Below, in pieces: positions 6,811 through 54,476 of a stretch of DNA of 64,000 nucleotides; position 1 is the stretch's first letter; each line of letters begins with the position of its first letter. The notes under the pieces were generated by a model that was not told the DNA's origin, made no database searches, and worked only from the letters and a program-made list of their open reading frames with translations. A program made the translations under genes and the position numbers. The stretch comes from Polystyrenella longa (GTDB lineage: Bacteria > Planctomycetota > Planctomycetia > Planctomycetales > Planctomycetaceae): positions 4,177,001-4,241,000 of the forward strand of contig NZ_CP036281.1 in NCBI RefSeq assembly GCF_007750395.1, given 5' to 3'.

Positions 6811-7860
6811 ATGATACGTACGATTCTAGTAGTCAGTTACTTTTTGGTCAGCGTAGGCGCAATTGTCACATTCGTGAACAGCGGTGACCAAAGTGCAATG
6901 CCAAATGTTCTGACTGAACGACCCGTCATCTCGATCATCGGCTTGCTGCTAATGGTCATGTCCGTTGTTGCAGTCGATTTCATCTATCCACAAAAGAAAG
7001 TCTCGACGTTTTCGTCGGTTTACTTCGGCTTGCTGACCGGATTTCTGCTTTCTTATATATTGATGCTCGCACTACGACCTGCACTCGAAAATTCGGACTG
7101 GCAGGGAATTGTCACAATCATGGTGACATTAATGCTGTCCTACATGAGCATATCTCTATTGCTACAAACACGAGACGATTTTCGTTTCATCGTGCCTTAT
7201 GTTGAATTCTCTCGAGAACTCAAGGGTTCTAAACCTTTGATCATCGACAGCAGTGCCCTGATTGATGGACGAATCTCGGACGTTCTTGAGACTAAAATTA
7301 TTGATGCACAGCTTGTCGTTCCCGACTTCATTCTGCATGAAATTCAAAGCATTGCTGACAGCAGCGACAAAGGTCGCAGGACACGAGGTCGCCGCGGACT
7401 GGAGATTCTCACCAAGCTGCAGAAAGATTCCGAAGTCGACCTCCGAATGATGGAGACCGATAAACGGACGTATGACGGAGTTCCCGTCGATCAGAAGCTG
7501 GTGCTGCTCGGAAAAGACTTGGGTGGTCGCATCGTCACCAATGACTACAACCTGAACAAGGTGGCCGGCGTGCAAGGTGTGCAGACAATCAATCTGAACG
7601 ATGTCGCCAATGCATTGAAACCTCGCTTCCTGCCGGGAGAACACATCCGCATCAAAGTCATCAAAGATGGCGAATCGCCGGGGCAAGGCGTTGGTTACCT
7701 GGACGATGGCACGATGGTTGTTTGCGAAAATTGCAGCGACAAGAAAGGTCGCGAAGTGGAAATCGCCGTCACCAGCGTACTGCAGTCTAGTGCCGGTCGC
7801 ATGATCTTCGGCAAACCTTACGACGACCGCGAAGGTTCCGAACCAATTCCACCGGCCTGA
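6811..7860 (+). CDS. membrane-anchored PIN-TRAM domain protein (YacL-like)
   Basis: The 349-residue protein has four predicted membrane helices in the first 115 residues. A PIN domain follows, starting at LIIDSSALIDGRISDV, with acidic residues of the metal-binding nuclease site in IIDSSALIDGR, VPDFILHEIQ, DQKLV and IVTNDYNLN. The C-terminus from about residue 275 is a TRAM domain (GEHIRIKVIKDGESPGQGVG), a small RNA-binding beta-barrel. The same order is found in Bacillus YacL and mycobacterial homologues, whose RNA target is uncertain. It is therefore likely a membrane-tethered RNase or RNA-binding protein. The gene ends in a strong terminator that runs into the stop of convergent argS. Confidence 0.9.
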   Translation: MIRTILVVSYFLVSVGAIVTFVNSGDQSAMPNVLTERPVISIIGLLLMVMSVVAVDFIYPQKKVSTFSSVYFGLLTGFLLSYILMLALRPALENSDWQGIVTIMVTLMLSYMSISLLLQTRDDFRFIVPYVEFSRELKGSKPLIIDSSALIDGRISDVLETKIIDAQLVVPDFILHEIQSIADSSDKGRRTRGRRGLEILTKLQKDSEVDLRMMETDKRTYDGVPVDQKLVLLGKDLGGRIVTNDYNLNKVAGVQGVQTINLNDVANALKPRFLPGEHIRIKVIKDGESPGQGVGYLDDGTMVVCENCSDKKGREVEIAVTSVLQSSAGRMIFGKPYDDREGSEPIPPA

Positions 7861-7875
7861 CAATCAGACAATCCC

Positions 7876-7911
7876 AAACGGGCGTTCTCCTTTGGAGCCG
7901 CCCGTTTTTTT
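7876..7911 (+). terminator. intrinsic terminator after the PIN-TRAM gene
   Basis: A 9-bp stem (7876-7884 with 7899-7907) with further pairing inside the loop (CTCC/GGAG) is followed by seven T residues at 7905-7911. The T-run touches the argS stop codon on the other strand. Confidence 0.88.
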
Positions 7912-9868
7912 ACATCTTGTCCGTCGTCTGAATCCCCAGCAGTTCCAGTCCCTGCTGAAAGACGCGAGCCGTTAAATCGCAAAGCACAAGTCGGCTCAGT
8001 TTGATGGCCGGATCCTGTTCATTCTTAACGTGACAGTGGCCATAGAAAGCCGTAAAGGAATTCGCGGTCTCGAATAAATACGCCGTCAAGATATTAGGAC
8101 GATAGTCAGAAACGACCGATTCAATGGTTTCCGCAAAACGGATCAACTGCAGCCCGAGGGCTCTTTCAGCTTCGTGTGTGAAAACCACAGTGGCGGTGTC
8201 GCTTCGCAGTTCAGATCGATCCGCACCCACTTCACGAAAGATTCCGCCGATTCGAGCATAGGCATATTGAATGTAAGTCGCCGTGTCTCCGGTCGTCGCC
8301 AGCATTTTCGTCCAGTTGAAGACGTAATCGCTTTCCCGGTTGTGGCGTAAATCTGCATATTTGATGGCGCCGATTCCCACTAGCTCCGCGACTTCCTGCC
8401 GGGTTGCGTTGTCCAGTTCTGGATTCGGTTTACTATCGTCCCCAGCGTCAACTATCTGGCGGGCCCGTTGAATCGATTCGTCGATCAGGCTTTCCAAACC
8501 CACTGTATCGCCAGATCGAGTTTTGAATGGTTTCTTATCATCGCCCAGGACTGTCCCGAAACTGATATGCCGTAAATCGATTTTATCAAAACCCCACTTG
8601 TCTGCTGTTTCAAACAGAAGTTTGAAATGCTCTCCCTGTCGAGCGTCGACGACATAGAGAATGCTGTCCGCCTTGAGTTCTTCTACACGATATTTGATCG
8701 TCGCCAGATCGGTGGTCGCGTAGGTATAGGCTCCGTCTGTCTTCTGCACGATGAACGGGGCTTCGTTTCCTTCATGAAAGACACAGATCGCTCCCTGACT
8801 TTCCTGGGCGAGCCCCTTCCGTTCCAAATCGGAGACGACATTCCCCAGGAAAGGTTGAAAATAACTTTCTCCAAGAATCATGTCGAACTTCACATCAAGA
8901 CGCTCATAGACTTCTTCAATCGCCGCGATGCAGAGAGGCAAGAATTGATTCCACAATTTCAGGTTTTCGACATCCCCTTTATGAAGTTTCGCCGTCTCTT
9001 CTCTCGCCAGTCGGGCGATATCGGGATGTGCATTTGCCTGAGCAGCTAATTCTGGAGAGCCATTCACTACGGCGATTTTCTCTTCTGCCGAGAGCAAATT
9101 CTCCTTCAAAGAAGCGAGATCATTTTTCAGTTTGCCTAGTGCTTTTCGCTGCTGCTTGTCTTTCGGATCGATTTTCACTTCCAAATCAGTCAATTGCTGA
9201 GCTGTCGCTTCGATCTTTGATTTGAGCTCGGGCACTTTCGCAACCAGCTGATGATATTCCGACAGTTGATTGACTAGTTTGTATAAGCGGGCCAGTTCCT
9301 GGACTGAAGCCTGCTTGAAGCTTTCTTCGTTCAGAAAATTCTTGTAACCGAAGATGATCATCCCGAACTGCGTACCCCAGTCACCCAGGTGATTATCACC
9401 ATAAACTTGGTGCCCCAGAAAGTTCAGAATTCGACAGATGGTATTTCCGATGACCGTACTTCGCAGATGGCCAACGTGCATCGGCTTGGCGACATTTGGA
9501 GCCGAATAGTCAACGATGATCGTCTCCGGTTTTTCAGCTTTGGGTATGGAAAGCCGTTCGTCCTGCTGCATTTCACCGAGTCGTGAAATGAGCCACTCAG
9601 AATTGAATTTGAAATTGATAAATCCAGGACCAGCGACGTTGACCGATTCGCAGATTCCCTCCAGCTGAAGTTTTTCAACAAACTCATCCGCCAGTTCGCG
9701 TGGGTTTTTGCCGAGCTTCTTAGCCAGCGGCATCGCGAAGTTGGCCTGAAAATCGCCGAACTTCGTATCTTGAGCGGGCCTTACCATCTCCAGAAAGGGC
9801 GTGGGGTCTTCGACATATTCCTGGAACAGGGGACTCAATTGTTCGCGAATGACAGCCAGGGGATGCAT
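7910..9868 (-). CDS. argS: arginyl-tRNA synthetase
   Basis: Class I aminoacyl-tRNA synthetase that charges tRNA-Arg. The N-terminal Add-1-type domain (about residues 1-110) precedes the Rossmann fold with the HIGH-type motif KPMHVGHLRSTVIG and the YSAPNVAKP segment. The KMSKS-loop equivalent reads PFKTRSGDTVGL, as is normal for ArgRS, and the DALR anticodon-binding domain forms the C-terminus (YAYARIGGIFREV onward). At 652 residues it is about 75 longer than typical. The excess lies near residues 200-275 and looks like a coiled coil (many Lys, Glu, Leu, Gln), just before PDIARLAREETAKLHKGD. It is transcribed leftward after rsfS with a 190-bp gap. Confidence 0.97.
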   Translation of the reverse strand: MHPLAVIREQLSPLFQEYVEDPTPFLEMVRPAQDTKFGDFQANFAMPLAKKLGKNPRELADEFVEKLQLEGICESVNVAGPGFINFKFNSEWLISRLGEMQQDERLSIPKAEKPETIIVDYSAPNVAKPMHVGHLRSTVIGNTICRILNFLGHQVYGDNHLGDWGTQFGMIIFGYKNFLNEESFKQASVQELARLYKLVNQLSEYHQLVAKVPELKSKIEATAQQLTDLEVKIDPKDKQQRKALGKLKNDLASLKENLLSAEEKIAVVNGSPELAAQANAHPDIARLAREETAKLHKGDVENLKLWNQFLPLCIAAIEEVYERLDVKFDMILGESYFQPFLGNVVSDLERKGLAQESQGAICVFHEGNEAPFIVQKTDGAYTYATTDLATIKYRVEELKADSILYVVDARQGEHFKLLFETADKWGFDKIDLRHISFGTVLGDDKKPFKTRSGDTVGLESLIDESIQRARQIVDAGDDSKPNPELDNATRQEVAELVGIGAIKYADLRHNRESDYVFNWTKMLATTGDTATYIQYAYARIGGIFREVGADRSELRSDTATVVFTHEAERALGLQLIRFAETIESVVSDYRPNILTAYLFETANSFTAFYGHCHVKNEQDPAIKLSRLVLCDLTARVFQQGLELLGIQTTDKM

Positions 9869-10058
9869 GGGAACGAGGACCTTCTAAAGAATCGATCAGT
9901 GGAGAGGCAGGTAGAGACATCGAGATGCAACGATGGCGACGCGTTTGCGAACGACAACCCACAGTATTCCCAAACTCAGCCCAAGAGGAATTGGGGCAGC
10001 AGCCTATCGCGTGAAAATATGGGAAAGAACAGCAGTTGCGGTCCAAAATCGAACAGGT

Positions 10059-10484
10059 TTATTCCGCTTCTTCAGTCTTCCAGTCGACCAGCTTGGCATC
10101 TGCCCATAATCCTTCCAGATTATACATCTCGCGAGCCTCACTGCTAAACAGATGCAGGACGATGTCTCCGTAGTCGTTCAGGACCCAGACATTCGAATCG
10201 CGACCTTCCATCCCAATTCGTCCATTTCCGGTCTGCTCCAGAACACGATCGGACTCATCTGCCGCTGCACGCATCTGGCGCGGTGTGATTCCCGTCCCTA
10301 AGACGAAGAAGTCAACGATCGGAGTTACTGTAGACATATCCAGCACTACAACATCCTTGCACTTGTACTCATCCGCAACTCGTGCGCAGCGAATTGCGTT
10401 TTTTCGGCTCTCGCGTAATTGCTCCTCTCGCGAGTGGTCCATTTCAGGCTGACTAATTTCTGTGTCTCCGTTGGTAGTTTGCAT
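10059..10484 (-). CDS. rsfS: ribosome silencing factor RsfS
   Basis: RsfS (DUF143/Iojap family) binds ribosomal protein uL14 on the large subunit and blocks subunit joining when nutrients are scarce. The family core is visible: CKDVVVLDMSTVTPIVDFFV, then RQMRAAADE, and the C-terminal WVLNDYGDIVLHLFSSEAR followed by YNLEGLW. The ATG at 10484 gives 141 residues, a normal length with a short polar N-terminal tail. A longer frame extends to 10640 but would run through the hppA terminator hairpin (10619-10652), so it was not used. The gene lies between hppA and argS on the same strand. Confidence 0.92.
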   Translation of the reverse strand: MQTTNGDTEISQPEMDHSREEQLRESRKNAIRCARVADEYKCKDVVVLDMSTVTPIVDFFVLGTGITPRQMRAAADESDRVLEQTGNGRIGMEGRDSNVWVLNDYGDIVLHLFSSEAREMYNLEGLWADAKLVDWKTEEAE

Positions 10485-10618
10485 TCGATTAACTTTGTTT
10501 GGTAACACCCGCGCGAACCTATTGCTGGCCCCGAAACCTGTCGGAGTCTTTTTCCACGTTAGTCGCAGCGAGGGAGTGTACACCCGAATTGGGGTGCTGG
10601 TTATCAGGATATCAATAT

Positions 10619-10652
10619 AAAAAGCCGGAAGCGACGTCACTCCCGGCTTTTT
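10619..10652 (-). terminator. intrinsic terminator of the pyrophosphatase gene
   Basis: A perfect 10-bp stem (10619-10628 with 10643-10652) with a 14-nt loop, reading GC-rich stem then T-run on the minus strand. It lies 70 bases after the hppA stop and upstream of rsfS. Confidence 0.88.
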
Positions 10653-10725
10653 AAGCAGAACTGAGGGAACTCTTCGATTCGGAGCCCCCTCAGGGTCTGT
10701 TTTCTCAGTAATTCATTAAAACGAC

Positions 10726-13386
10726 TTAGAAAATCGACAGGGAGTACTGCACGATGAAGCCAGCAGCAATGACGGATACGATGCTCATCAGCTTGATCAA
10801 AATGTTCAGGCTGGGGCCGCTGGTATCCTTGAAGGGGTCTCCAACGGTATCACCAACGACGGCCGCTTTATGAGCTTCAGTTCCTTTACCTCCGTGGGCA
10901 CCCGCTTCGATGTACTTCTTGGCGTTATCCCACGCACCGCCGGAATTCGCCATCATAATTGCGACTGCAAACCCTGAGGTCAAGCCCCCCACCAGCATCC
11001 CCATCACGCCGCCTACACCCAGAACAAGCCCCACCAGAATGGGCGTAACGAGACCCAACAATGCGGGAATAATCATTTCCCGCTGAGCGGCAGCCGTACT
11101 GATAGCGACACAGGCAGCGTAATCGGGTTCGGCTTCTCCCTCCATAATTCCTTTGATTTCGCGGAACTGCCGCCGGACTTCCTCGACCATATCACTGGCC
11201 GAACGCCCCACCGCCTTCATAGTCAGTGAGCAGAACACGAACGTGAGCAGCACCCCCATAAAGACACCAGCCAACACTTTGGGACTCATTAAGTTCGCAT
11301 CGTAGAACCGGACGAAATCAGGCATATTGGCCGTTACCACTGCAATCGCTTTGTCTCTGTTGATCAATTGCTCCAGGTCGATGGGCACCTTCGTTCCGTA
11401 GTCCGCCTCGTGAAATGCCTTCAGTCCCCCGTCATCTTCGAGCGCAATCCCAGCTGGGAAAATCAGGTAGGACCGAGCGGTCTCCTCATCTCCAATTCGT
11501 ACCCCGGCGATTCCTCTCCCGATTTTGGTCGCCTCCGCCTCCGCAAGAGAAACTGATTGGATAATTTCCGTTTCTTCGCTGGTCACCCATTGATCAATTC
11601 CGACCCGCACCTGTTCAATATAGGCTGCCAGAAGTGCCAATGCGGTTAGTGCGGCTGAACCGATAGCGAATCCTTTCCCAATGGCCGCCGTTGTATTACC
11701 CAAACTGTCGAGTGCGTCGGTCCGTTCTCTCACGAGAGGTTCCTGATTACTCATTTCTGCGTTGCCACCCGCGTTATCGGCAATCGGTCCGTAGGCGTCA
11801 GTTGCCAGAGTAATTCCCAGCGTACTCAACATCCCCACAGCTGCGATGGAGACACCATACAGGCCCATTGTTACCAATTTGGGATCCTGAAAATCGAAGC
11901 CCGTACAAAAACCAAATGCAAGCAGAATGGCCGCACTGACAACAAAAATGGGGACCCAGACGCTGTAGAGCCCTTCAGAAACTCCAGCAATAATCAGTGT
12001 CGCCGGCCCCGTTCTTGATTGATCGGCGATTCGCTTAGTAGGGGCAAACTCGGCGCTGGTGCTGTACTCGGTCCAGCGTCCAATGAGTACTCCAGAGACT
12101 AACCCGGTGACGATGGCCCCAAAGACTCCCAGCATCGACCAACCCCCTGGAAGTCCCAAGGTATTATCGGGGTTCGACGGTAATACGAGCATCAGGGTCA
12201 CAAGGATAAATGCAGCGATGGCGACGCCGATGCTGGCGAAATTACTCCCTTTCTCAAGCGACTTCATCAAGGTTGACTCCGACGCTCCTTCGTCGGCTTT
12301 AACCAGAAATACTCCGAAGATGGACAGGCCAATTCCTGCGGCAGCCAATACCAGCGGCAACATCAATAACATGGCTTGAATCAGCGGATCTCCCTGGTAA
12401 GCCGCGACCCCCAGTGCCGCACTCGCGAGAATACAACCGCAATAGGACTCGTACAGGTCGGCCCCCATGCCGGCGACGTCTCCGACATTATCACCCACAT
12501 TGTCCGCAATGGTCGCCGGGTTTCGAGGGTCATCTTCCGGGATACCCGCTTCCACTTTCCCGACCAGGTCAGCTCCGACATCGGCCGCTTTAGTGAAGAT
12601 CCCCCCGCCGACACGGGCAAAGAGAGCCTGACTGCTCGCCCCCATGCTGATCCCCAGGATGGATAGGGTCAGTTCTGCCATACTGAGGTCGAATCCCCAA
12701 TAAAGCAGGGCGAACCAGAAACAGATATCAAATAGCGCCAAACCGACCACGACCAGCCCCATGACGGCACCGCTACGAAAAGCGACCTGCAGGGCATCGT
12801 TTAAAGAAGTCTTCGCTGCCTGAGTTGTTCGTGAACTGGCCATGGTGGCCGTTTTCATTCCAAACCAGCCAGCCAGCCCCGAGTAAATAGCCCCTGTCAG
12901 AAACGAGAAGGGAACCCAAACAGATTGAGTCCGCAGCCCGAAAGCCAAAAGAGCCAGCACGATAAACGTTGCCACAACAAAAATGGCAACGACGGAATAT
13001 TGCCTTGTAAGATAAGCGCGGGCGCCAGCACGCACATGTTGGGCAATCGTGATCATTTTTTCATCGCCCTCATGCTGCAGCTTCATCCAACGATAAAATC
13101 GCAGAGCGAAGAAAAGCGAAGTGATGGCCGCTGCCATGCTGACCACCCAGCAAATGACCAAGGGGATCTGATTCACGGTCGTATCTCCCTCAGCGGCAAG
13201 CAGAGGAGAACTAGTCAGCAGTAGAGAAAACAGGGCGAGAATAAGGGAACGTAAACCTAACCTGCCTCGCCGAGAATTGATTCGTTGATTGGACTTCGTC
13301 GCTGATGGTGGTGTTAGGGGTGAGGAGCACACAATCTTGTGAGAAGATTGACAAACCTGTCGAGTCGCGAGCGAAAAGAAACTCAT
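10726..13386 (-). CDS. hppA: membrane-bound ion-pumping pyrophosphatase
   Basis: Integral membrane enzyme that couples hydrolysis of pyrophosphate to export of H+ or Na+. The catalytic loop is unmistakable: [19 protein letters not shown] then [18 protein letters not shown] (residues about 270-310), and near the C-terminus [19 protein letters not shown]. The segment [16 protein letters not shown] has Ala and Gly where K+-independent enzymes carry Lys and Thr, so the K+-dependent class is likely; the pumped ion is not assigned. It is 886 residues, well above the usual 660-770. Extra length comes from an N-terminal segment of about 65 residues resembling a signal peptide ([15 protein letters not shown]) and an insert of about 85 residues near 590-700 between two membrane helices. 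The start codon is uncertain because of the unusual N-terminus. Confidence 0.95.
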
Positions 13387-44878: not shown

Positions 44879-46699
44879 ATGAAATCAGGGATCTCGATTG
44901 GCTACTTCTGCCTAATCGTCATGCTGCCATTCCTCTGCACCGGCTGCCGACCCGGAGACGACGATCAGATTCCACTCACAGAGACGCTCCGCATTCCCAT
45001 GCCGACGGCGGGTCCCAAATCGCTCGATCCGGTGCAGGGAAGCACCGCCTATGAAAACATGGCGGCAAGCCAGGTTTACGAAACGCTCTTTCAGTACAAG
45101 TATCTGAAACGGCCCTTCGAGCTTGAGCCGCTCCTCCTCGTCGAAATGCCGGAAGTCTCTGAGGATGGGAAGGTCTATCATTTTGAGCTGAAACAGGGAG
45201 TCTTTTTTCATGATGACCCCTGCTTTCCCAATGGCAAAGGACGTGAAATCGTCGCGCAGGACGTGATCTATTCCTGGAAACGCATGGCTGATCAGTCACA
45301 GAATCCGAAAAGCTGGTGGCTATTTGAAAATACGATTGTCGGGTTTGACGAACTGCGGGAAGAACAGACGGCTCGGTTCAAGGCAGGTGAGCCTTTTCAA
45401 TACGACAAACCGATTGAGGGAATGAAAGTTCTGAACGACTACGAATTCAAGATCATCTTGAAAGAACCGGTGACGCGGTTTATCTGGATTCTCGCAATGT
45501 TCCAGACTTCGATCGTTCCGCAGGAAGCAGTCACCACTTACAAAGACCAGTTCAATCGACATCCCGTCGGCACCGGTCCGTACACGCTTGATCCCGATGA
45601 CTGGCGCACCAATCAGGGAATGACGTTCTACAAGAACCCGAATTATCACCTTTCGACCTATCCCGAAGAGCACATGCCCGAGGATGAGGCAGACGGGCTG
45701 ACGGCCGATGCGGGTGAAAGGCTTCCTCTGACGGACAAGTTGGAAATGTCTTTCTTCGTCGAAGTGCAACCGATGTGGCTGAAGTTCCAGACAGGCCAAC
45801 TCGATTTCATCACTGTGCCGCCGGACTATTTCAACAGGGCTTATTTCAAACGGAATCAGGAACTACGCCCCGATTACAAGGAAGCAGACATAACTTCCCA
45901 GAAGGTCTCTCTGCTTGATTTTGTATTTACCGGCTTCAACATGGAAGATGAAGTCCTGGGTGGATACACGCCCGAGAAGAAAGCTTTGCGTCAGGCAATC
46001 AGCCTGGCAATCGATTTAAATGAAATCAACAACGCGTTTTATCAGGGGACCAACACCGTCTACGACGGCCCGATCCCTCCCGGTATGGCGGGCTACCCGG
46101 AAGGGGGCGTCGTGTCTGGCAGTTTTCGAGGTAAAGATCTCAGCCGAGCCCGGGCTAAATTAGCGGAAGCAGGTTACCCGAATGGTAAGGGCTTACCTCC
46201 CATAGAATACTACGTCGGTAGGTCAGGTGTCAGCCAGGAACAATCAGAGTTACTGAAACGACAGTTGGCTCAGATTGGAATCAAGCTGAACGTGAACCTC
46301 GTTGATTTCGGAACGCTGATCGAGAATGTAAACAGTAAAAAAGCCCCTATGTTCAGTTTCGCCTGGGGCTCTGATTATCCCGATGCGGAAAATAATCTGG
46401 CTCTGTTTTACGGCCCCAATGAATCACCTGGAAGTAACCATTACAACTACAAGAATCCGGAATACGACGAGCTATACCGGGAGATACTCTCTCTGCCTCC
46501 CTCTCCGGAACGGACAGAAAAGTTTGTGTTGATGCGCGACATGCTTCTCGAAGATGTTCCCTACATTGGTTCCATGGCGCGGCCCCGCTTTTATCTGATT
46601 CATCCACGACTGGAGAATGTCAAAGCTACGGAAGTCTTCAGCAACTGGTACAAGTATCTCAATATCAATCCCGAGACACCCCGGCTTGTTATAGATTGA
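44879..46699 (+). CDS. oligopeptide/dipeptide ABC binding lipoprotein (OppA/DppA-like)
   Basis: The 606-residue extracytoplasmic solute-binding protein (SBP_bac_5 type) has a lipoprotein signal ending LCTGC (Cys at residue 23). Typical segments include VYETLFQYKYL, YHFELKQGVFFHDDP, and IFTYP-like beta-strands. The usual second-half features are present too: LRQAISLAIDLNEINNAFY and LAEAGYPNGKGLPPIEYYV. It should bind peptides or similar oligomers for the permeases that follow (66 and 73 bases apart). A leading CRPG linker and a long insert near residues 260-300 (EDEADGLTADAGERLP) are somewhat acidic. The gene is the first of three importer genes. Confidence 0.93.
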   Translation: MKSGISIGYFCLIVMLPFLCTGCRPGDDDQIPLTETLRIPMPTAGPKSLDPVQGSTAYENMAASQVYETLFQYKYLKRPFELEPLLLVEMPEVSEDGKVYHFELKQGVFFHDDPCFPNGKGREIVAQDVIYSWKRMADQSQNPKSWWLFENTIVGFDELREEQTARFKAGEPFQYDKPIEGMKVLNDYEFKIILKEPVTRFIWILAMFQTSIVPQEAVTTYKDQFNRHPVGTGPYTLDPDDWRTNQGMTFYKNPNYHLSTYPEEHMPEDEADGLTADAGERLPLTDKLEMSFFVEVQPMWLKFQTGQLDFITVPPDYFNRAYFKRNQELRPDYKEADITSQKVSLLDFVFTGFNMEDEVLGGYTPEKKALRQAISLAIDLNEINNAFYQGTNTVYDGPIPPGMAGYPEGGVVSGSFRGKDLSRARAKLAEAGYPNGKGLPPIEYYVGRSGVSQEQSELLKRQLAQIGIKLNVNLVDFGTLIENVNSKKAPMFSFAWGSDYPDAENNLALFYGPNESPGSNHYNYKNPEYDELYREILSLPPSPERTEKFVLMRDMLLEDVPYIGSMARPRFYLIHPRLENVKATEVFSNWYKYLNINPETPRLVID

Positions 46700-46765
46700 C
46701 GTCACCGTTCGACTTTCCTTCATCCATTCCCCCAACTCCCCCATAACGACTATTGAGGTTTCCCG

Positions 46766-47719
46766 ATGTGGAGTTATGTGATTCGCCGGATTTTTTACAA
46801 CATTCCGGTTTATCTGGCGGTCGTGTTATTTGTCATGCTCGCGTTACGAGTGAACGATCCCGTCACGAATTACCTCGGAAAGAATGCCTCCGAGCAGGAG
46901 ATAGAGACCCAACGACAATCGATGGGGTTGGATCGCCCGTTTTACGAACAGTACTTCAGTTTTCTAGGGGACCTGTTCACACTCAGCTTTGATGAAGAAA
47001 GCTGGGGGAACAAAGGGGTCAAGGTTTCGACCATTCTGTCGGACGCAATCGTCCCCAGTCTCTCGTTCACCATCCCCGCTCTGATTATCACTTCGTTAAT
47101 TTCCACCTGTGTGGGCCTGTTCTGTGCTAGTTTTCGCGGACGTTGGCCAGACCGTCTGGTGGCGATTACCGCCGTTCTGGGAATGAGTGTCAGCCTGCTG
47201 GTTTATACGATTCTGGGACAATACTTCGGTGCCTTCTGGCTCACGGTCGAGACCGGTTGGGATCTATTCGCCATCGGCGGATACGAACGGAGCCTGCAAG
47301 CCTGGCCTTACTACTGCCTGCTCCCCATTATCATCACCACCACGGTCGCTCTTGGTTATGACGCGCGGTTTTATCGGGCGGTGATGGTGGAAGAGACAAA
47401 TAAGAACTACATCACCACAGCACGAGCAAAAGGAGCATCGAAAACCCGCGTGATGTTTGGGCACCTGCTGAAAAATGCCATGATTCCCATCACCACTCAC
47501 ATCGCAGCGACCATTCCGTTTCTCATTACAGGGTCTCTGGTGATCGAACAATTCTTTACCATACCGGGGATGGGTCTGACATTAATCCAGGCGGTTCAAA
47601 ATAACGATTTCCCAATCGTACAGGCATTCACGGCAGTGTTGGCGGGCATTTATATCATCACTAATATTCTGACCGACGTCGTCTACGCCTGGCTCGATCC
47701 TCGTATCCGATTGACCTGA
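46766..47719 (+). CDS. oligopeptide-type ABC permease (DppB-like)
   Basis: The 317-residue membrane protein shows the DppB/OppB pattern: a first helix starting MWSYVIRRIFYNIPVYLAVV, an external loop, four or five more helices, and the coupling loop NYITTARAKGASKTRVMFGHLLKNA (the EAA-type motif that docks on the ATPase). Its C-terminus is IEQFFTIPGMGLTLIQAVQNND, the conserved end of this permease family. A typical proline-rich GMGL motif is intact. It is followed by DppC 73 bases downstream. The presence of a normal EAA loop implies that an Opp/Dpp-type ATPase is used, though none is in the window. Confidence 0.94.
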   Translation: MWSYVIRRIFYNIPVYLAVVLFVMLALRVNDPVTNYLGKNASEQEIETQRQSMGLDRPFYEQYFSFLGDLFTLSFDEESWGNKGVKVSTILSDAIVPSLSFTIPALIITSLISTCVGLFCASFRGRWPDRLVAITAVLGMSVSLLVYTILGQYFGAFWLTVETGWDLFAIGGYERSLQAWPYYCLLPIIITTTVALGYDARFYRAVMVEETNKNYITTARAKGASKTRVMFGHLLKNAMIPITTHIAATIPFLITGSLVIEQFFTIPGMGLTLIQAVQNNDFPIVQAFTAVLAGIYIITNILTDVVYAWLDPRIRLT

Positions 47720-47792
47720 TGCTGCACCATCGCACCATCGAGATTCCTTTTCAAACAGATATTTCTTCAACCGTTAACCACTGGCCGGCTTT

Positions 47793-48953
47793 ATGAACAT
47801 CCGACAGACCCGCTTTTGGAAACATCTGATGCGGGATAAATTCGCTTTACTCGCGCTCGGTGTGATTGTGATTTACTTTCTCGTCGCATTGGTCGTCTGG
47901 TTCAACCGATCAGAACTGGCGACATTGAGTACATTTCGCGTGGGTCCCGCCAATATGCCTGGCTTCACGACTCCGACAATCGAGCAGCGGATTGACTTCA
48001 CGGAGTTTTATCTGGAATCGATCTCCGGCGCCCTTCGCAAATCCGATCCGGAAGCAGCCTTACGCGAGATCGACATTGTAAAACTGAATATCGTCGAGAT
48101 ACCCGTGGCTGAGATACAGAAAAACGCCGACCAAGCTTATGTTTCTTTTGACAAGCTGCTCGCCTCTGAGGAAGGCGGATTCGATCTCGAATTGTTACAG
48201 CAATTTGAATCACAGGTCGATGCGTTCTACGTCGAGCCTTCAGGTTGGGATGGCTTCGTGCGGAGCTTTCTCCTGGTGCTGGGGACAGACCGACAGGGGA
48301 GATCGATCTCGCTCCGGGCGATGTTCTCCACACTCGTCGCGATACAAATCGGTTTTGTGACCGCCTTCGTTTCCGTTTTCATCGGAACATTGCTCGGCAC
48401 CGCCGCCGGATTATACGGGGGCATGTTGGACCACGTCGTCATCTGGCTATACACCACATTCTCCTCGATTCCAAATATCGTGTTGCTGGTCCTGTTGGCT
48501 TATATGTTCAAGGGTTCGACGTACGACAATACTCTGCTTCCCGTTTACGTTGCCTTTTGCGCCACGTACTGGATCGGAGTCTGTCGCGTGATTCGAGGTG
48601 AGACGATCAAAATCCGCGATCTGGAATACGTCGACGCAGCACGCGTGCTTGGTCTCAGTAAGTTTTATACCTTATGGCGACATATCTGGCCGAATGTCTC
48701 GCACCTGATGCTCATCAACTTCTCGCTCCTGTTTATTGGTGCCATTAAGTCGGAAGTCATCCTCAGCTTCCTTGGATTGGGAGTAAAAGAAGTTCCCAGT
48801 TGGGGGATTATGATCAGTCAATCAAGTTCCGAAGTAGTAAACGGTTTCTTTTGGCAAATCGGCACGGCGACCGCTTTTATGTTTTTTCTGGTAGTCGCGT
48901 TCAATATCGTCTCCGATTTCCTCCAGGATGTATTCGATCCCAAACATATATAA
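47793..48953 (+). CDS. oligopeptide-type ABC permease (DppC-like)
   Basis: The 386-residue protein has the DppC/OppC layout. A short N-terminal segment RQTRFWKHLMRDKFALLALGVIV is followed by a membrane helix. An unusually large extracytoplasmic domain (about residues 38-155) with acidic helices comes next, then DRQGRSISLRAMF, and the coupling loop ETIKIRDLEYVDAARVLGLSKFYTLWRHIWPN near residues 265-300. The final helix segment is VILSFLGLGVKEVPSWGIMI. The extra domain exceeds the usual 290-300 residues by about 90. It ends the importer unit; 208 bases follow before the WXG-like cassette. Confidence 0.93.
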   Translation: MNIRQTRFWKHLMRDKFALLALGVIVIYFLVALVVWFNRSELATLSTFRVGPANMPGFTTPTIEQRIDFTEFYLESISGALRKSDPEAALREIDIVKLNIVEIPVAEIQKNADQAYVSFDKLLASEEGGFDLELLQQFESQVDAFYVEPSGWDGFVRSFLLVLGTDRQGRSISLRAMFSTLVAIQIGFVTAFVSVFIGTLLGTAAGLYGGMLDHVVIWLYTTFSSIPNIVLLVLLAYMFKGSTYDNTLLPVYVAFCATYWIGVCRVIRGETIKIRDLEYVDAARVLGLSKFYTLWRHIWPNVSHLMLINFSLLFIGAIKSEVILSFLGLGVKEVPSWGIMISQSSSEVVNGFFWQIGTATAFMFFLVVAFNIVSDFLQDVFDPKHI

Positions 48954-49161: not shown

Positions 49162-49434
49162 ATGGCACAGGCAATTGTCAATCCTGAGGACCTGCGGCGG
49201 TTCGCCCAGACATTGAAGAAATTCAATAACGAACTGACCAATCAGGCATCGATGATCAACAATCAACTGGAAACGCTGAGCAACACATGGCGTGACCAGG
49301 AGAACCGTAAGTTCGCCGATGAATTCCAGGGCCACCTGAAAATCCTCGCCCGCTTTATCGAGAACAATGAAGAACACATTCCGTATCTGCTTCGTAAAGC
49401 GGAACGAATCGAAGATTACCTGCAACAACGCTAA
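49162..49434 (+). CDS. WXG100-like small helical protein
   Basis: The 90-residue product (ATG at 49162) is predicted to form a two-helix hairpin of the ESAT-6/WXG100 size class. At the turn the motif reads TWRDQENRKF with Trp at residue 43, where ESAT-6 also has its WXG turn, but Asp replaces Gly in the third position. The pattern W-x-D-x5-F is shared with the 80-residue protein at 50168. A C-terminal ESX export motif (Y-x3-D/E) is not evident. An upstream ATG at 49069 adds 31 residues of random character and was not chosen. The gene starts the cassette; a coiled-coil protein follows 77 bases later. Secretion by a type VII-like system is inferred, not shown. Confidence 0.75.
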   Translation: MAQAIVNPEDLRRFAQTLKKFNNELTNQASMINNQLETLSNTWRDQENRKFADEFQGHLKILARFIENNEEHIPYLLRKAERIEDYLQQR

Positions 49435-49511
49435 ATTCGGTTGGGGGGTGCTGACAATTTCTGTTGCAGCCTCGCTTTTGTTTCTTCCCGCTCACGAAAG
49501 GACCTGCGACA

Positions 49512-50171
49512 ATGTCGACAAATGCCAAGGTTCATTCCTTTGAAGCTATTAAACGCTTCCATGGTTCTCTGATTATCTTCGCGGAAGAAGCAACCGGTTC
49601 GCTCGGCTCGCTGCACCAGGAAATTGTCCGGATCATGCAGTGGCTCACCCACGAACAACCTTCCTACTGGAAGAAGCAAATCCAAAAAGGGTTTGAAGAA
49701 GTTGCCGCTGCCAAGGCGGCATTATCTCGTGCCAAGATGAAGAATTTCGACGGGAATCCTGCCTCCTGTATCGAAGAAAAGAAAGCCCTCCAGAAGGCGA
49801 AATGGGCTCTCGATCATGCGCAGAAACAGATTGATGTGGTCCGGCACTGGGGCATTAAGATGCAACAGGAATCAGACGAATATCGCGGTCGGCTGGCTCG
49901 TTTGGAAACGATGGTGAACCTTGAAATCCCCCGAATGCTGGCACTGCTTGAGAATATGGTGACCGCTCTGGAGGCCTACGCCGCTATTCAGACTGTCGAA
50001 ACAAACCGTATGGCAGGAAACGACGAACAATCTCGACAACAAAGAGCAGTCGGGAACAAACAGGCTCAGGAACAACCTGCTCCGAAGTCAGAAGAAGCTG
50101 TTTCAACTGAAACCGCAGCTCAATCGGCAGCTCAACCGACAAATCAGCCCGTGCCGGAGGAACATCAATGA
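49512..50171 (+). CDS. coiled-coil protein between two WXG-like genes
   Basis: A 219-residue protein, mostly alpha-helical, with heptad-like runs of Lys, Glu, Ala and Leu from about residues 60-165 (GFEEVAAAKAALSRAKMK; AKWALDHAQKQIDVV). A Gln/Ala/Pro/Glu-rich disordered tail follows from about 175. It has no signal peptide. The start at 49512 has an AAAGGA ribosome site; a frame open to 49464 adds 16 residues. It overlaps the next gene by ATGA, so the two are translationally coupled. Its place between two WXG100-like proteins suggests a chaperone or structural role in the same system. No domain name is known to me. Confidence 0.75.
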   Translation: MSTNAKVHSFEAIKRFHGSLIIFAEEATGSLGSLHQEIVRIMQWLTHEQPSYWKKQIQKGFEEVAAAKAALSRAKMKNFDGNPASCIEEKKALQKAKWALDHAQKQIDVVRHWGIKMQQESDEYRGRLARLETMVNLEIPRMLALLENMVTALEAYAAIQTVETNRMAGNDEQSRQQRAVGNKQAQEQPAPKSEEAVSTETAAQSAAQPTNQPVPEEHQ

Positions 50172-50410
50172 AAACTAACAATTTCAGTGGCGTAATTGGT
50201 CGATTAAACGAGGCGATGGAAGAGCTGCTCGCCAGCTGGCAGGAAACCAAGGTGCAGTGGAATGACCACAACAGCCATCAGTTTGAAGAGAATTACCTGA
50301 TCCCCCTGTATAACGCGACACGGCAGACGGTCGAATCGACCCGCATGATGAATGAAACTACCCGTAAGGCGGTTCAAGAGTGTACCCGGGGCCCATTTGA
50401 GTCGAGTTAA
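50168..50410 (+). CDS. second WXG100-like small helical protein
   Basis: The 80-residue product begins by ATGA overlap with the preceding gene. It is predicted helical, with QWNDHNSHQF centred on Trp 31, then EENY. Aligned with the first cassette protein, the shared pattern is W-x-D-x2-[NS]-x-[KQ]-F-x-[DE]-x-[FY]. A second Trp is present at residue 24. It is shorter than a typical WXG100 protein and has a Cys near residue 71. No export signal is recognised. The tight coupling with the coiled-coil gene supports a shared function. Confidence 0.7.
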   Translation: MKTNNFSGVIGRLNEAMEELLASWQETKVQWNDHNSHQFEENYLIPLYNATRQTVESTRMMNETTRKAVQECTRGPFESS

Positions 50411-50721
50411 CCGCTTTCCAACTGCAGATCAGCCGCCAAACTGGACTTCGCTACCTCTTCCAGACATTCCAATTTGTTTTTGCAGCGAGGCCAATTCGTT
50501 CTCCCAGACAGGGCAGTCCATCTTGACACAAAACCGGAACGGAAATAAATTTTAGCCGCGTTCTCTCTAGAATGCGTTTCTGACTCTCGGAATGGTGCCG
50601 TTCTCGCTGCTCGAACGATCCCACACTGAAATTGGAAATCAGCTCTCTTTACATCCACCTATCGAGATTTGCCCTTTAACAAGGCGTTCTCCGAGTTACT
50701 ACCGCACGAATGGAGTCGTCG
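50411..50721. other. intergenic region, no gene seen
   Basis: About 310 bases between the WXG-like cassette and the DegT gene, with no RNA gene or terminator recognised. It presumably holds the DegT promoter. Confidence 0.4.
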
Positions 50722-51933
50722 ATGGCAACTGCGCCTTTGCAGAACACACCTGTTCCGTTTATCGATTTAGTGGCGCAATACGAGCCACTGGCAGAAGAAA
50801 CCCTGGCCGCCGTCAGTCGATTGATGTCTGAACAGAAGTTTATTCTCGGTGAAGAAGTCGAGTTGTTCGAACAGGAAATTGCCACTTATTGCACCGCCCC
50901 CGAAGCGATTGGCTGCTCCTCGGGAACGGATGCACTTATTCTGGCCCTTATGGCGTTGAACATCGGAGCGGGTGACGAAGTTATTACCACCCCGTTCACC
51001 TTCTTCGCCACCGGCAGTTCGATTCACCGAGTCGGAGCAAAACCGGTCTTCGTCGATATCGATCCGATCACGTACAATATCGACCCGGCAAAAATTGAAG
51101 CTGCCATTACACCAAAAACCAAAGCGATCATGCCGGTTCACATTTTCGGCCAATGCGCTGAAATGGATCAGATCAACAGTATTGCTGCCAAACACAACCT
51201 GTTTGTAGTCGAAGACGCTGCCCAGGCCATTGGTTCCGAATACCGGGGCCGACGTGCCGGAGTTTTAGGTGACATTTGTTGTTTCAGCTTTTTCCCCACG
51301 AAAAATCTGGGTGGAGCCGGAGATGGTGGCATGCTCACTACCCGCAGCCCCGAACTGGCAACGCGCCTCAAACAACTTCGTGTCCACGGACAGACTTCCG
51401 TCTACTACCATCAGGAAGTCGGACTGAATGCCCGGCTGGATGCTCTGCAGGCGGCCATTCTACGCGTGAAGCTGAAATCACTCGATGACTGGACTGAAGC
51501 CCGACAGCGCAATGCTGAATGTTACAACGAACTGTTCCAGCATTACGATCTGGAAGAGGTGATTGTCGTACCTGAATCCAAATCTCAGGACCGCCACGTT
51601 TACAATCAGTACACCGTCCGCGTTTTAGATGACCGTCGAGACGATGTGATCCAAAACCTGCGCGACCAGCAGATCGGTGCCGCCGTTTACTACCCTGTTT
51701 CACTCCATCTGCAACCTTGTTTCAGTTACCTCGGTTACAAGAAGGGGGACATGCCCCAGAGCGAAGCTGCTTCGAACGAAGTCCTGTCGCTCCCTATCTT
51801 CGCCGAGCTTGTTGTTTCACAACTGGAAACAGTCGTACGCGGCATCGCCGAAGCAATCGCCCCCGGCAGCGCGGAGAACATCGATCGCCTCTACAGCGAA
51901 TCGGAAGAGCTTCCGCAGAAGAAAGTCGCCTGA
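50722..51933 (+). CDS. DegT/DnrJ/EryC1-family aminotransferase
   Basis: PLP-dependent aminotransferase of the sugar-nucleotide type that makes amino sugars for surface polysaccharides or glycans. It shows FIDLVAQYEPL, CSSGTDALILALMALNIG (cofactor pocket), and PFTFFATGSSIHRVGAKPVF. VVEDAAQAIGSEYRGR and the PLP-binding FFPTKNLGGAGDGG with Lys at 194 follow. The ATG at 50722 has GGAG six bases upstream; an ATG at 50710 is also in frame. The product is 403 residues, a normal length. It ends in a good terminator. No sugar nucleotide partner genes are adjacent, so the specific sugar cannot be named. Confidence 0.95.
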   Translation: MATAPLQNTPVPFIDLVAQYEPLAEETLAAVSRLMSEQKFILGEEVELFEQEIATYCTAPEAIGCSSGTDALILALMALNIGAGDEVITTPFTFFATGSSIHRVGAKPVFVDIDPITYNIDPAKIEAAITPKTKAIMPVHIFGQCAEMDQINSIAAKHNLFVVEDAAQAIGSEYRGRRAGVLGDICCFSFFPTKNLGGAGDGGMLTTRSPELATRLKQLRVHGQTSVYYHQEVGLNARLDALQAAILRVKLKSLDDWTEARQRNAECYNELFQHYDLEEVIVVPESKSQDRHVYNQYTVRVLDDRRDDVIQNLRDQQIGAAVYYPVSLHLQPCFSYLGYKKGDMPQSEAASNEVLSLPIFAELVVSQLETVVRGIAEAIAPGSAENIDRLYSESEELPQKKVA

Positions 51934-52202: not shown

Positions 52203-54476
52203 TCAATCCTGGTAGAACTGGGTTTGTTCCTGGTAGACGAGAGGTTCGTCGTCGTCGAGGCTTTTCAGTTCGACGCTCATGTTGTGTTTACCAGCCAAGC
52301 TGCCGACGACGTGTACACGGAAGATGGCAGTTTCTCCGGCGGGCAATGTTGCCAGCGGTTTAAAGAGAACCACTCCGTTAGCTTCTTTATGAGCCGAGGG
52401 TCCGCGAGCTGACTTGAAGGCAACGCCTCCGGGGAGTTCACAATTCAATTCAACTTGTTGAGCCGCTTTCGAGCCGACATTGCGGACCCGGATTTCGTAA
52501 GCAGTTTCCCGACCAATTTCGACAGGGTCGTCCAGATCAAGAATCTCCAAAGCGAGTGACGGTGTTCCGTCGACGGCAGTTTCCACAACAGCTTCTGTCC
52601 GAGTTGCCTGATCGGAGACAGCCGCAAACTGCTGAACGCCTTTGCCAAGTTCGGTTGCTTCCAACTGAACCTGCACCACGGTCGTCTGGCCCTGATCCAA
52701 GCGACCAACGAACCACTGCACTACGCGGGTGGTTTCGTTGAACTTACCCCCTTTGTCCGCCTGCACGAAATTGAATCCAGTAGGGACACGGTGCAGCAAA
52801 CGAACGTTGCTCGATTCTGCAGAACCAATGTTATTCACAGTCAGTCGATAGGTCGCAGTACGCCCGACGTATCGTAGACGCGGACCTTCCGCCAGCAGAG
52901 CAAGCTCTGGAGCGATCACATCCACGGATGTCGTCGCGACTTCCGTCAGGCCGCTTTCGGCAACCGCCGAGATTTGTAATTTCTGGGTTCCGCCGGCAAC
53001 ACAGACAAGAGGAAGTCGCACGCGACGTTTCTCACCTGGATTCAACGAACCCACTGGCAACGCCACTTTCTTACCTTGAGCATGTTCCAGCCCATCGGGC
53101 ACCTCCGCATGAATCATCACGTTCTGGGCGACACCGGTTCCCGGGTTCGCTACGGTAATAATTTGTGTAGCGGCTTCTCCGACCATCACTCGCTCCGGCC
53201 CTTCCAGAGCCAGTTTCAGCATCGGCTCTTCAACATGAAAAGCAGCGGCCGTCATCGCACTGAACCGGACATGGGCTTCGGCCATTAACGGACCACGTTG
53301 ACGTGGAATGAATTTGATTTTGAAAGAGAGCTCTTCGTCACCCTTCAAGTGATCGATTTCCCAGGATAATTGACCATTGGTCATGGGAGTTTCTGGTTGA
53401 ACAGAGACGAGTTCCACATGAGGAGGCAGCACGGTATCGATCAAGAAGTTATGAACGGATGTCGCCGAGATATTTCGAACCTGAAGTTCACATTCGGCCG
53501 GTTGCCCGACATTGAGTACCCCTTTGTTGATCCAGCGGGTCGCGACACTTGGAGTAATCGGTCCTTTGATCGTCAGTTTCGACCAGGGAGCCGGAGCAAA
53601 GCTTGCCCCAGTCAAACCAGGAGCCGAGAATGAGCTCGGTACCTGATCGAAAGTTTCGGTGTCTTCAGACTGAGGAACCAGATTGAGCATTGAGGTAGAT
53701 GGTGATGGTGCCGAAGTTTTCACTTCAGGTTGAATTTGGAATTCAGTAACAGACGTCTCGTCTGCCTCTTCCAATTCTTCAGCGTCCTCTTTAGCGTCGA
53801 GTTCAAAATCAGGGAAGCTGGGAAAACTAAGTTCTGCCGCGCTTGCTTCCGGCTTTACTGGAGCTGTCGCGGAGACTTTCTTTGTGTTGTCTTGTTGTGC
53901 TTTTTTCAGGAACGGGTTCTGCTCCTGCGAGTTGACCTGTTGAATCATCGATCCACCAGGACTTGCCTGTTCCTCAAATCCTGCTTGGGAAATCATTGAT
54001 TTCGGTTCATCCCCGAATCCAGAGAACGCTGTTTTCCGATTGGATGATGAGCGAGAAAATGAGGACTCTACATTCACACCGATGGAAGGACCCGCAAAGG
54101 TATCGGAATCGAATGATTGCGACTGCCGTGACTGAGTCTTCATAGAAGAGCGATCGAATCCACTATCGCTTTGAGCCGACAGAACGGGTTGCCGCTCAAA
54201 TTCAGATTCGAATCCACTGAATTTACCAGCACCGAGATTTCGTCCGCTGACTCCAAGCATTTTCTCCTGACTTGACGAGGGGAGACGCAAATCTTTTCCC
54301 GGACGTTCCGACTCGAGTGCAGCATCGCCCACTTCGTCTAGAAAGAATTTATTGTCGAGATCGCTTGGCACCAGGTGATCGGGAAATTCATCCAGACTTG
54401 TGCTCTGCGCTGAGAGTAACCCCCAGCCGCCCATTAATAAAAGTAATGTTGTCAGGATCATTAACCCGTTACGCAT
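52203..54476 (-). CDS. exported DUF11-repeat protein
   Basis: The 757-residue protein has a signal peptide (LMILTTLLLLMGGWGLLSAQS) and a Ser/Asp/Glu-rich, low-complexity linker of about 250 residues. Four beta-sandwich repeats of the DUF11/CARDB type fill about residues 305-757. Each repeat has the pattern x-V-x-N-x-G, then an extended strand, then P-x-G-x-x-F and a closing L-x-G-E segment (for example EIRVRNVGSKAAQQVELNCE; LTVNNIGSAESSNVRLLHRV). Such repeats are common in surface and secreted proteins of planctomycetes and may mediate adhesion or envelope stability. It resembles the partial protein at 61520. The gene is isolated with its own terminator. Confidence 0.9.
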   Translation of the reverse strand: MRNGLMILTTLLLLMGGWGLLSAQSTSLDEFPDHLVPSDLDNKFFLDEVGDAALESERPGKDLRLPSSSQEKMLGVSGRNLGAGKFSGFESEFERQPVLSAQSDSGFDRSSMKTQSRQSQSFDSDTFAGPSIGVNVESSFSRSSSNRKTAFSGFGDEPKSMISQAGFEEQASPGGSMIQQVNSQEQNPFLKKAQQDNTKKVSATAPVKPEASAAELSFPSFPDFELDAKEDAEELEEADETSVTEFQIQPEVKTSAPSPSTSMLNLVPQSEDTETFDQVPSSFSAPGLTGASFAPAPWSKLTIKGPITPSVATRWINKGVLNVGQPAECELQVRNISATSVHNFLIDTVLPPHVELVSVQPETPMTNGQLSWEIDHLKGDEELSFKIKFIPRQRGPLMAEAHVRFSAMTAAAFHVEEPMLKLALEGPERVMVGEAATQIITVANPGTGVAQNVMIHAEVPDGLEHAQGKKVALPVGSLNPGEKRRVRLPLVCVAGGTQKLQISAVAESGLTEVATTSVDVIAPELALLAEGPRLRYVGRTATYRLTVNNIGSAESSNVRLLHRVPTGFNFVQADKGGKFNETTRVVQWFVGRLDQGQTTVVQVQLEATELGKGVQQFAAVSDQATRTEAVVETAVDGTPSLALEILDLDDPVEIGRETAYEIRVRNVGSKAAQQVELNCELPGGVAFKSARGPSAHKEANGVVLFKPLATLPAGETAIFRVHVVGSLAGKHNMSVELKSLDDDEPLVYQEQTQFYQD

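Follow-up and report, generated by a model that had tools for sequence, protein, structure and literature searches.

Type VII protein export is known from the bacteria of tuberculosis and from staphylococci. A 2024 survey of its variants, in the part cited here, presents the system as belonging to Bacillota and Actinomycetota (PMC11217815). Sets closer to the one described below are in print elsewhere. A table footnote of Zhang et al. 2012 (PMC3482391, Table 1 footnote 6) concerns solo-WXG sets, in which a WXG protein without a toxin fusion accompanies a YueA-like ATPase whose three FtsK-like regions include a single active one, that in the middle; planctomycetes are named there, the sets are called mobile and the WXG protein is the only partner named. 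The 2024 CoCoNuT paper (PMC11090510), in the sections drawn on here, describes EssC-like ATPases with an N-terminal coiled coil, no transmembrane domains and a central domain that alone is active, accompanied by two WXG100 proteins (one without the motif) and a coiled-coil nuclease; it cites Anantharaman 2012 for the stand-alone form, and the word planctomycete is absent from its main text. Helicobacter pylori HP0062 is dimeric and folds as a helical hairpin whose bend reads WRD; it clusters with an FtsK/SpoIIIE protein, and its function could not, according to the part of the 2012 report cited, be deduced from the solved structure (PMC3397514); a pan-genome paper treats WxG and FtsK genes (HP0062 and HP0066 paralogues) as a minimal type VII set in the passage used here (PMC4978471). 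Here we analyse a three-gene cassette in a 64,000-nucleotide stretch of the planctomycete Polystyrenella longa (contig NZ_CP036281.1, positions 4,177,001 to 4,241,000; hereafter the window). A preliminary description had taken its products, P0001, P0002 and P0003, for a small type VII-like WXG100 set. We conclude that they probably form the soluble components of a minimal type-VII-like export system, whose motor would be an EccC/EssC-related ATPase encoded elsewhere in the genome.

The cassette proteins

The three open reading frames (ORFs) lie on the forward strand with the lengths previously given (90, 219 and 80 amino acids, aa), and, as had been noticed, the last two overlap: the P0003 start and the P0002 stop share ATGA at 50168-50171.

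49162..49434, + strand: P0001 ORF, 90 aa, WXG100-superfamily protein of WxD type
49288..49296, + strand: codons of W43-R44-D45 in P0001, where WXG proteins have their turn; no variation among 18 aligned sequences
49512..50171, + strand: P0002 ORF, 219 aa, predicted long coiled-coil hairpin with a disordered C-terminal tail
50168..50410, + strand: P0003 ORF, 80 aa, second WXG100-like predicted two-helix hairpin
50258..50266, + strand: codons of W31-N32-D33 in the turn of the P0003 hairpin; W31 and D33 do not vary among 18 aligned sequences

P0001 passes the gathering cut-off of the Pfam WXG100 family, PF06013 (31.3 bits against 27.3). Trp43 stands at the site of the WXG turn with Asp in place of Gly, as first described, and all 18 aligned members of the family read W-R-D there, so none has a literal W-x-G. 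Because this turn reads as described for HP0062, we call P0001 a WxD-type relative which, by score, falls inside the Pfam WXG100 family, and not a canonical WXG protein. HP0062 is also its best solved relative: searched against structures, the P0001 family profile finds HP0062 at the top (3fx7, E = 1.6e-9; 2gts, 4.1e-9), followed by EsxB of Bacillus anthracis (4j42, 1.2e-7) and EsxA of Staphylococcus aureus (2vs0, 5.2e-4), and the alignments to these hairpin structures span residues 1-88 on 3fx7 and 1-81 on 4j42. Conservation is highest at the turn, at the N-terminus and in the C-terminal part, where P74, L76, R78-A80, Y86-L87 and Q89 are invariant. In ESX systems, the ATPase recognises the C-terminal tail of its WXG100 partner; by analogy, the conserved C-terminus of P0001 is likely to be a docking site for the ATPase, and the protein itself is likely to form a homodimer or to pair with P0003. 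Seventeen of 21 genomes searched match PF06013, 15 of them at the cassette (14 over the cut-off and G007 below it), and the three matches away from it (in G019, in G004 and a second one in G023) all score below the cut-off.

P0003 has no Pfam match above any cut-off. Its AlphaFold model, computed with its alignment, is a two-helix hairpin (helices 6-30 and 34-73, mean pLDDT 87.5) with W31-x-D33 at the turn between the helices, and W24, W31 and D33 are invariant in 18 of 18 aligned sequences. The pattern that the preliminary description had read in both small proteins, W-x-D-x2-[NS]-x-[KQ]-F-x-[DE]-x-[FY], does fit P0001 from W43 and P0003 from W31, and with its W-x-D invariant in 18 of 18 members of each family it is more than chance. 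Comparison of the two families with hhalign gives a probability of 60.8% (E = 8.2e-5 as a single comparison) and places W31-x-D33 of P0003 on W43-x-D45 of P0001. The seven top Foldseek matches of the P0003 model are all EsxB or HP0062, and the first 14 rows of a VIA-align search are all WXG100 proteins or HP0062 (Z 7.8-8.9). The hairpin fold on which the type VII-like reading depends is thus predicted for P0003 and matched by profile for P0001.

P0002 had been described as a coiled-coil protein with a disordered tail, and its AlphaFold model agrees: two long helices (10-80 and 87-182) form a hairpin that is followed by a low-confidence tail (mean pLDDT 80.5). A fold search found no match at E 0.001, its listing being mostly coiled coils and helical bundles. 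We considered whether P0002 is itself WXG100-like and rejected this, the hhalign probability being only 3%. Among 19 aligned members of its family there is no strong Pfam match and no nuclease family beyond weak matches: two members weakly match the large subunit of exonuclease VII (best E 8.4e-4), and one weakly matches a Bacillus HBL family (E 0.0019). In 103 ORFs of P0002 relatives, the tail that follows the coil has a median length of 36 residues.

Against two genomes of the same genus, five of six pairs give a ratio of non-synonymous to synonymous substitution (dN/dS) of 0.005-0.10. These ratios are rough, since dS is near saturation; in the sixth pair it is saturated.

Two further features of P0002 relatives were seen. 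Long tails were scanned in the three relatives where they are longest (L171:8278-9333, L088:1474-2604 and L093:970-2028), and each of these has an Imm33-like domain at its end (scores of 28.9-32.7 bits, with the cut-off at 27). A two-cysteine tip motif occurs in 50 of 90 unique sequences under a loose pattern; it carries no argument here because P0002 has only one such cysteine.

The EccC/EssC-related ATPase

The preliminary description found no EccC/EssC-type ATPase in the window, and this is correct: the genome (6.13 Mb, one contig) has two matches to the FtsK/SpoIIIE family PF01580, both outside it. One of them is of the EccC/EssC kind.

G000:C1:3507565-3512253, - strand: EccC/EssC-related ATPase gene, up to 1,562 aa, about 714 kb from the triplet

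A profile built from 16 ATPase sequences matches the structures of EccC of Thermomonospora curvata (4nh0; E = 1.1e-36), EccC5 (1.3e-30) and YukB (1.5e-25), and far more weakly that of the DNA translocase FtsK (1.5e-10). The homologues found downstream of the triplet in relatives have about 1,300-1,560 residues. We examined 52 planctomycete ATPases, 35 of them full-length sequences from the 80 loci described below and 17 others. Each has exactly one Walker A pattern, G....GK[ST], which lies in the middle region, and activity was judged by this pattern alone. Two N-terminal hydrophobic segments occur in 50 of the 52 and one in the other two, as scored with a simple hydropathy window, and the sequence that flanks them reads, by eye, as coiled coil. 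The last domain, which follows the active one, is degenerate and homologous to it (hhalign 97.3%); the region before the active domain resembles the last region (68.9%) and has weak PF01580 stretches in several genomes. By its sequence, the protein would therefore be an EccC/EssC-type membrane ATPase with tandem FtsK-like domains.

This domain pattern, with a WXG-type protein that lacks a toxin, corresponds on sequence grounds to the solo-WXG sets with a middle-active ATPase, as far as the footnote in PMC3482391 describes them, the first region being weakly like the others. EssC as described in PMC11090510 differs, the Walker A pattern here being in the middle region only. With P0001 over the PF06013 cut-off, P0003 a predicted hairpin, a type-VII-type ATPase in the genome and the triplet in relatives, the type VII-like character first proposed for the cassette is upheld.

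At L041:3144-7506 and 7565-12253, the ATPase gene ends beside, and convergent with, genes that match DNA gyrase B and A. A different FtsK-like protein of about 650-670 aa is encoded in two relatives that have no cassette (G003:C1:2200899-2201414 and G004:C102:19584-20111).

Distribution, scattering and plasmid relatives

We searched 294 planctomycete genomes (completeness of at least 90% requested), counting the ATPase at E <= 1e-100. Relatives of the ATPase, P0002 and P0003 occur in the same 54 genomes, and relatives of P0001 in 53. Shared descent inflates such a count, though the 54 genomes are spread over 16 families. The genome without P0001, G019, is a draft in which the ATPase starts at base 71 of one contig and the P0002-P0003 pair ends another. 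P0001, P0002 and P0003 give one match per genome; G084 shows a second ATPase stretch on another contig.

The starts of P0001 and the ATPase are at most 6 kb apart in 37 of the 53 genomes. In six others they share a contig at distances of 186 kb to 3.4 Mb, and in ten they are on different contigs. In G106, a single contig, P0001, P0002, P0003 and the ATPase are at four distant places, 0.71, 2.66, 1.94 and 0.23 Mb; in G006 and G234 the four genes lie at three places. Because genes so scattered are still kept together, physical linkage cannot explain the whole of the joint pattern. The three genes do recur as a set in relatives, but the real set is of four genes and includes the distant ATPase. 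As for the question, raised in the preliminary description, whether the genes always travel together, they are jointly kept or lost even though their positions are often scattered.

We read 80 loci, those that rank highest among 538 confirmed stretches; all are in planctomycete records (among them Thalassoglobus neptunius KOR42, which carries P0001 at locus L123) or, for two, in records named only 'bacterium'. All four genes are present in 38, the sequence ends less than 6 kb downstream in 14, and 28 have at least 6 kb without all four. Twenty loci, chosen around search matches and including pieces of split sets, were read individually: an ATPase homologue follows the triplet in 12, in the order P0001-P0002-P0003-ATPase where the small gene is listed. 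No fifth neighbour gene recurs, the largest clusters being present in 9, 7 and 6 of 66 loci (14 shorter loci excluded), and the examples of ten neighbour clusters are ordinary families such as an ABC transporter, LepA, a sulfatase and a pyridoxamine oxidase.

Relatives also occur on plasmids. The ATPase core matches 157 plasmid records; among the 40 listed, the first five come from Caballeronia, Rhodococcus (two), Deinococcus and Helicobacter, and 12 of the remaining listed matches are annotated EccC or EssC. P0001 itself matches plasmids of Caballeronia only. The gene order in Caballeronia sp. SBC2 is VWA, WXG100, a 436-aa protein, proteins of 113 and 76 aa, FtsK, CARF, VWA, PP2C and kinase; that on the plasmid of Helicobacter sp. 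NHP19-012 is an 89-aa WXG100-like protein (24.0 bits, under the PF06013 cut-off), a 340-aa protein, an SMI1/KNR4 (SUKH) gene, a 77-aa protein and FtsK. At its C-terminus the 340-aa protein has a WHH nuclease domain (44.6 bits against a cut-off of 25.1).

Family profiles were compared with the ORFs of four plasmid loci. That of P0001 finds the Caballeronia and Helicobacter WXG100-like proteins (E 1.2e-24 and 4.8e-15), the P0002 profile finds the middle proteins of Rhodococcus (6.8e-5) and Caballeronia (0.003), and the P0003 profile matches the Caballeronia WXG100 protein (5.2e-7, in this small set). The P0003 profile does not match the 76- or 77-aa proteins in these loci, and their equivalence to P0003 is therefore one of size and place. 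The N-terminal hydrophobic pair is missing from all four plasmid ATPases. The Deinococcus FtsK-type relative (L064:7252-10532) is without the G....GK[ST] motif; just upstream of it lies a gene for a small protein whose end is hydrophobic, as would be seen if the anchor had its own gene.

Compared with the systems already in print, the cassette is of a known kind: WXG proteins with a middle-active ATPase are described in the cited parts of PMC3482391 and PMC11090510. The solo-WXG sets, as that footnote presents them, are called mobile with the WXG protein alone named, whereas the planctomycete set has one match per genome, is often scattered and has P0002 and P0003 as constant partners. The EssC-like sets, as far as PMC11090510 was drawn on, share the middle-active ATPase with its N-terminal coiled coil, the two WXG100-like proteins and the coiled-coil protein; they differ in having no transmembrane domains, a nuclease-fused coiled coil and TerY-P or CoCoNuT neighbours, in place of the hydrophobic segments, the coiled coil with no recognised nuclease and the absence of such neighbours found here (among ten of the largest neighbour clusters, the examples scanned include no VWA/TerY-P or CoCoNuT families). 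HP0062, in the published accounts cited, shares the WRD at its bend and a linked FtsK-type ATPase. That locus of H. pylori was compared through its published description, the genes that we read being those of the plasmid copy; the latter has the gene order of the planctomycete set and differs in the WHH nuclease of its middle protein, the SUKH gene that follows and an ATPase of 823 aa without the hydrophobic pair.

With ESX and Ess/Yuk the set shares a WXG100 protein and an EccC/EssC-type ATPase, and unlike their hosts, planctomycetes form a phylum with two membranes. Sets of this type in planctomycetes had been called little described, and our search of the open-licence literature indeed found no study devoted to this one, but the subtype had been noted in the PMC3482391 footnote. 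Not found described were the planctomycete form itself, the hydrophobic segments in its motor, the coiled coil without a recognised toxin, and the constant list of four proteins encoded by single-copy, often scattered genes.

Possible roles and genomic setting

How such a set might export can be outlined from its parts. The ATPase would be anchored in the inner membrane by its two hydrophobic segments. FtsK-type pumps are hexamers, and this ATPase may assemble as one. P0001 and P0003, as homo- or heterodimers of WxD hairpins, would act as export signal or adaptor, and the coiled-coil hairpin of P0002 could serve either as the main passenger or as a structural element on the outside. The ATPase would then recognise the conserved C-terminus of P0001, and its middle domain would drive the complex across the inner membrane; no outer-membrane step was identified in the set. 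Hexamer formation of ATPases of this kind is stated in the cited part of PMC11090510.

Several observations weigh against this account. EssB/YukC was found in none of 21 genomes, with Bacillus subtilis positive as a control, and the genome of the window has no YukD/EsaB, in both of which the set departs from ESX and Ess/Yuk. P0001 falls below the cut-off of NCBIfam TIGR03930 (31.2 bits against 44.85). Taken alone, no Foldseek match of P0003 reaches significance (best E 0.61), and Z scores of 8-9 are common among helical hairpins, so the fold ranking is not decisive. P0002 shows no Pfam family at E 0.01 and no recognised cargo or toxin domain. In the ATPase, the membrane segments were called from a hydropathy window, no trained predictor being used, and the first ATPase-like region scores only 1.1% against the active domain in hhalign. 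The ATPase core also matches the PADLOC defence models SspH and mad8; its listed best stretches all fall within residues 778-1008, its core, and P0001-P0003 match no PADLOC anti-phage defence model at E 0.001. Finally, what the sequences identify is a type-VII-like gene set, and secretion is a step that we infer from it. If export does take place, either few parts suffice for it or outer parts have so far escaped recognition.

The matches of the ATPase core to SspH and mad8 would be expected of a module for defence or DNA handling, in which DNA is the substrate of the FtsK-type pump, or the ATPase acts together with nucleases as in TerY-P/CoCoNuT islands, with the WXG-like proteins as intracellular adaptors. 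Such a role would suit the plasmid relatives, which lie in islands of that kind (VWA, PP2C, kinase and CARF genes in Caballeronia, TerD genes in Rhodococcus), the CoCoNuT ATPases, reported without transmembrane domains in the cited part of PMC11090510, and the weak exonuclease VII matches of two P0002 relatives. Yet the hydrophobic pair is present in nearly all planctomycete ATPases, nothing beyond weak nuclease matches was found in the 19 P0002-family members, no fifth gene recurs in more than 9 of 66 loci, and the ten clusters scanned are without VWA, PP2C, kinase or TerD genes. Genes with one match per genome that are kept although scattered would also be unlike a mobile defence island, and we consider this role unlikely. 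The same single-match, scattered genes under selection would fit a resident function, including that of an envelope or internal scaffold, with the ATPase and coiled coils structuring the inner membrane and nothing being exported; the long helices that make up most of P0002 and the apparent coiled coil of the ATPase N-terminal part are in keeping with it. Published accounts, in the parts cited here, link WXG100 proteins and EccC/EssC ATPases to export, however, and 240 of the 294 genomes have no match, so that no general envelope requirement is served; a scaffold seems quite improbable.

The WHH nuclease of the Helicobacter plasmid protein raises the further idea of a decayed toxin-delivery system, whose middle gene has shed its toxin domain while the rest lingers. 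The C-terminus of the Caballeronia middle protein likewise looks nuclease-like by eye when set against the description in PMC11090510, as far as that goes, although Pfam found no such domain, and three planctomycete P0002 relatives carry the Imm33-like domain. Intact reading frames under strong purifying selection and co-occurrence in 16 families speak against decay, which we regard as very improbable. A minimal export system thus remains the reading that we favour. Beyond this, we tentatively suggest that the set may be a resident, self-sufficient four-protein exporter, made of a membrane-anchored, middle-active EccC-like motor, two WxD hairpins and a coiled-coil passenger free of toxin; that it may serve a fixed function in the planctomycetes that have it and not be a mobile toxin or defence cassette; and that the same ancestral plan with a passenger nuclease might underlie the HP0062-type locus of Helicobacter.

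The ATPase and hairpins reach, in 16 planctomycete families of our sample, beyond the phyla to which the cited part of PMC11217815 assigns the system. If export is confirmed, the set would be a minimal type VII translocon in cells with two membranes, with no known accessory part found, and would help to explain HP0062 in H. pylori. The fixed list of four proteins and the genes that are scattered yet kept make the question directly testable.

Searches for further type VII parts gave some side results. YukD-family matches occur in two of the 21 genomes, G024 and G019. On contig G024:C2 (L175:9809-14016), about 250 kb from the cassette, the G024 gene is followed by matches to a ubiquitin-conjugating enzyme, ThiF and JAB, and was rejected as a type VII part since it sits in a ubiquitin-like conjugation operon. 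An EccB search matched none of the 21 genomes and likewise none of the control genomes, so that absence of EccB does not follow from it. A search of genome contigs for an HP0062 relative gave 39 pattern matches, none of them confirmed.

A promoter and terminator scan was uninformative (2 and 3 matches against 1.4 and 2.5 in shuffled sequences). Upstream, window positions 44879-48953 encode a peptide-type ABC transporter (a solute-binding protein of family 5 and two permeases); downstream lie a DegT/DnrJ/EryC1-type aminotransferase (50710-51933) and a large DUF11-repeat protein (52203-54476).
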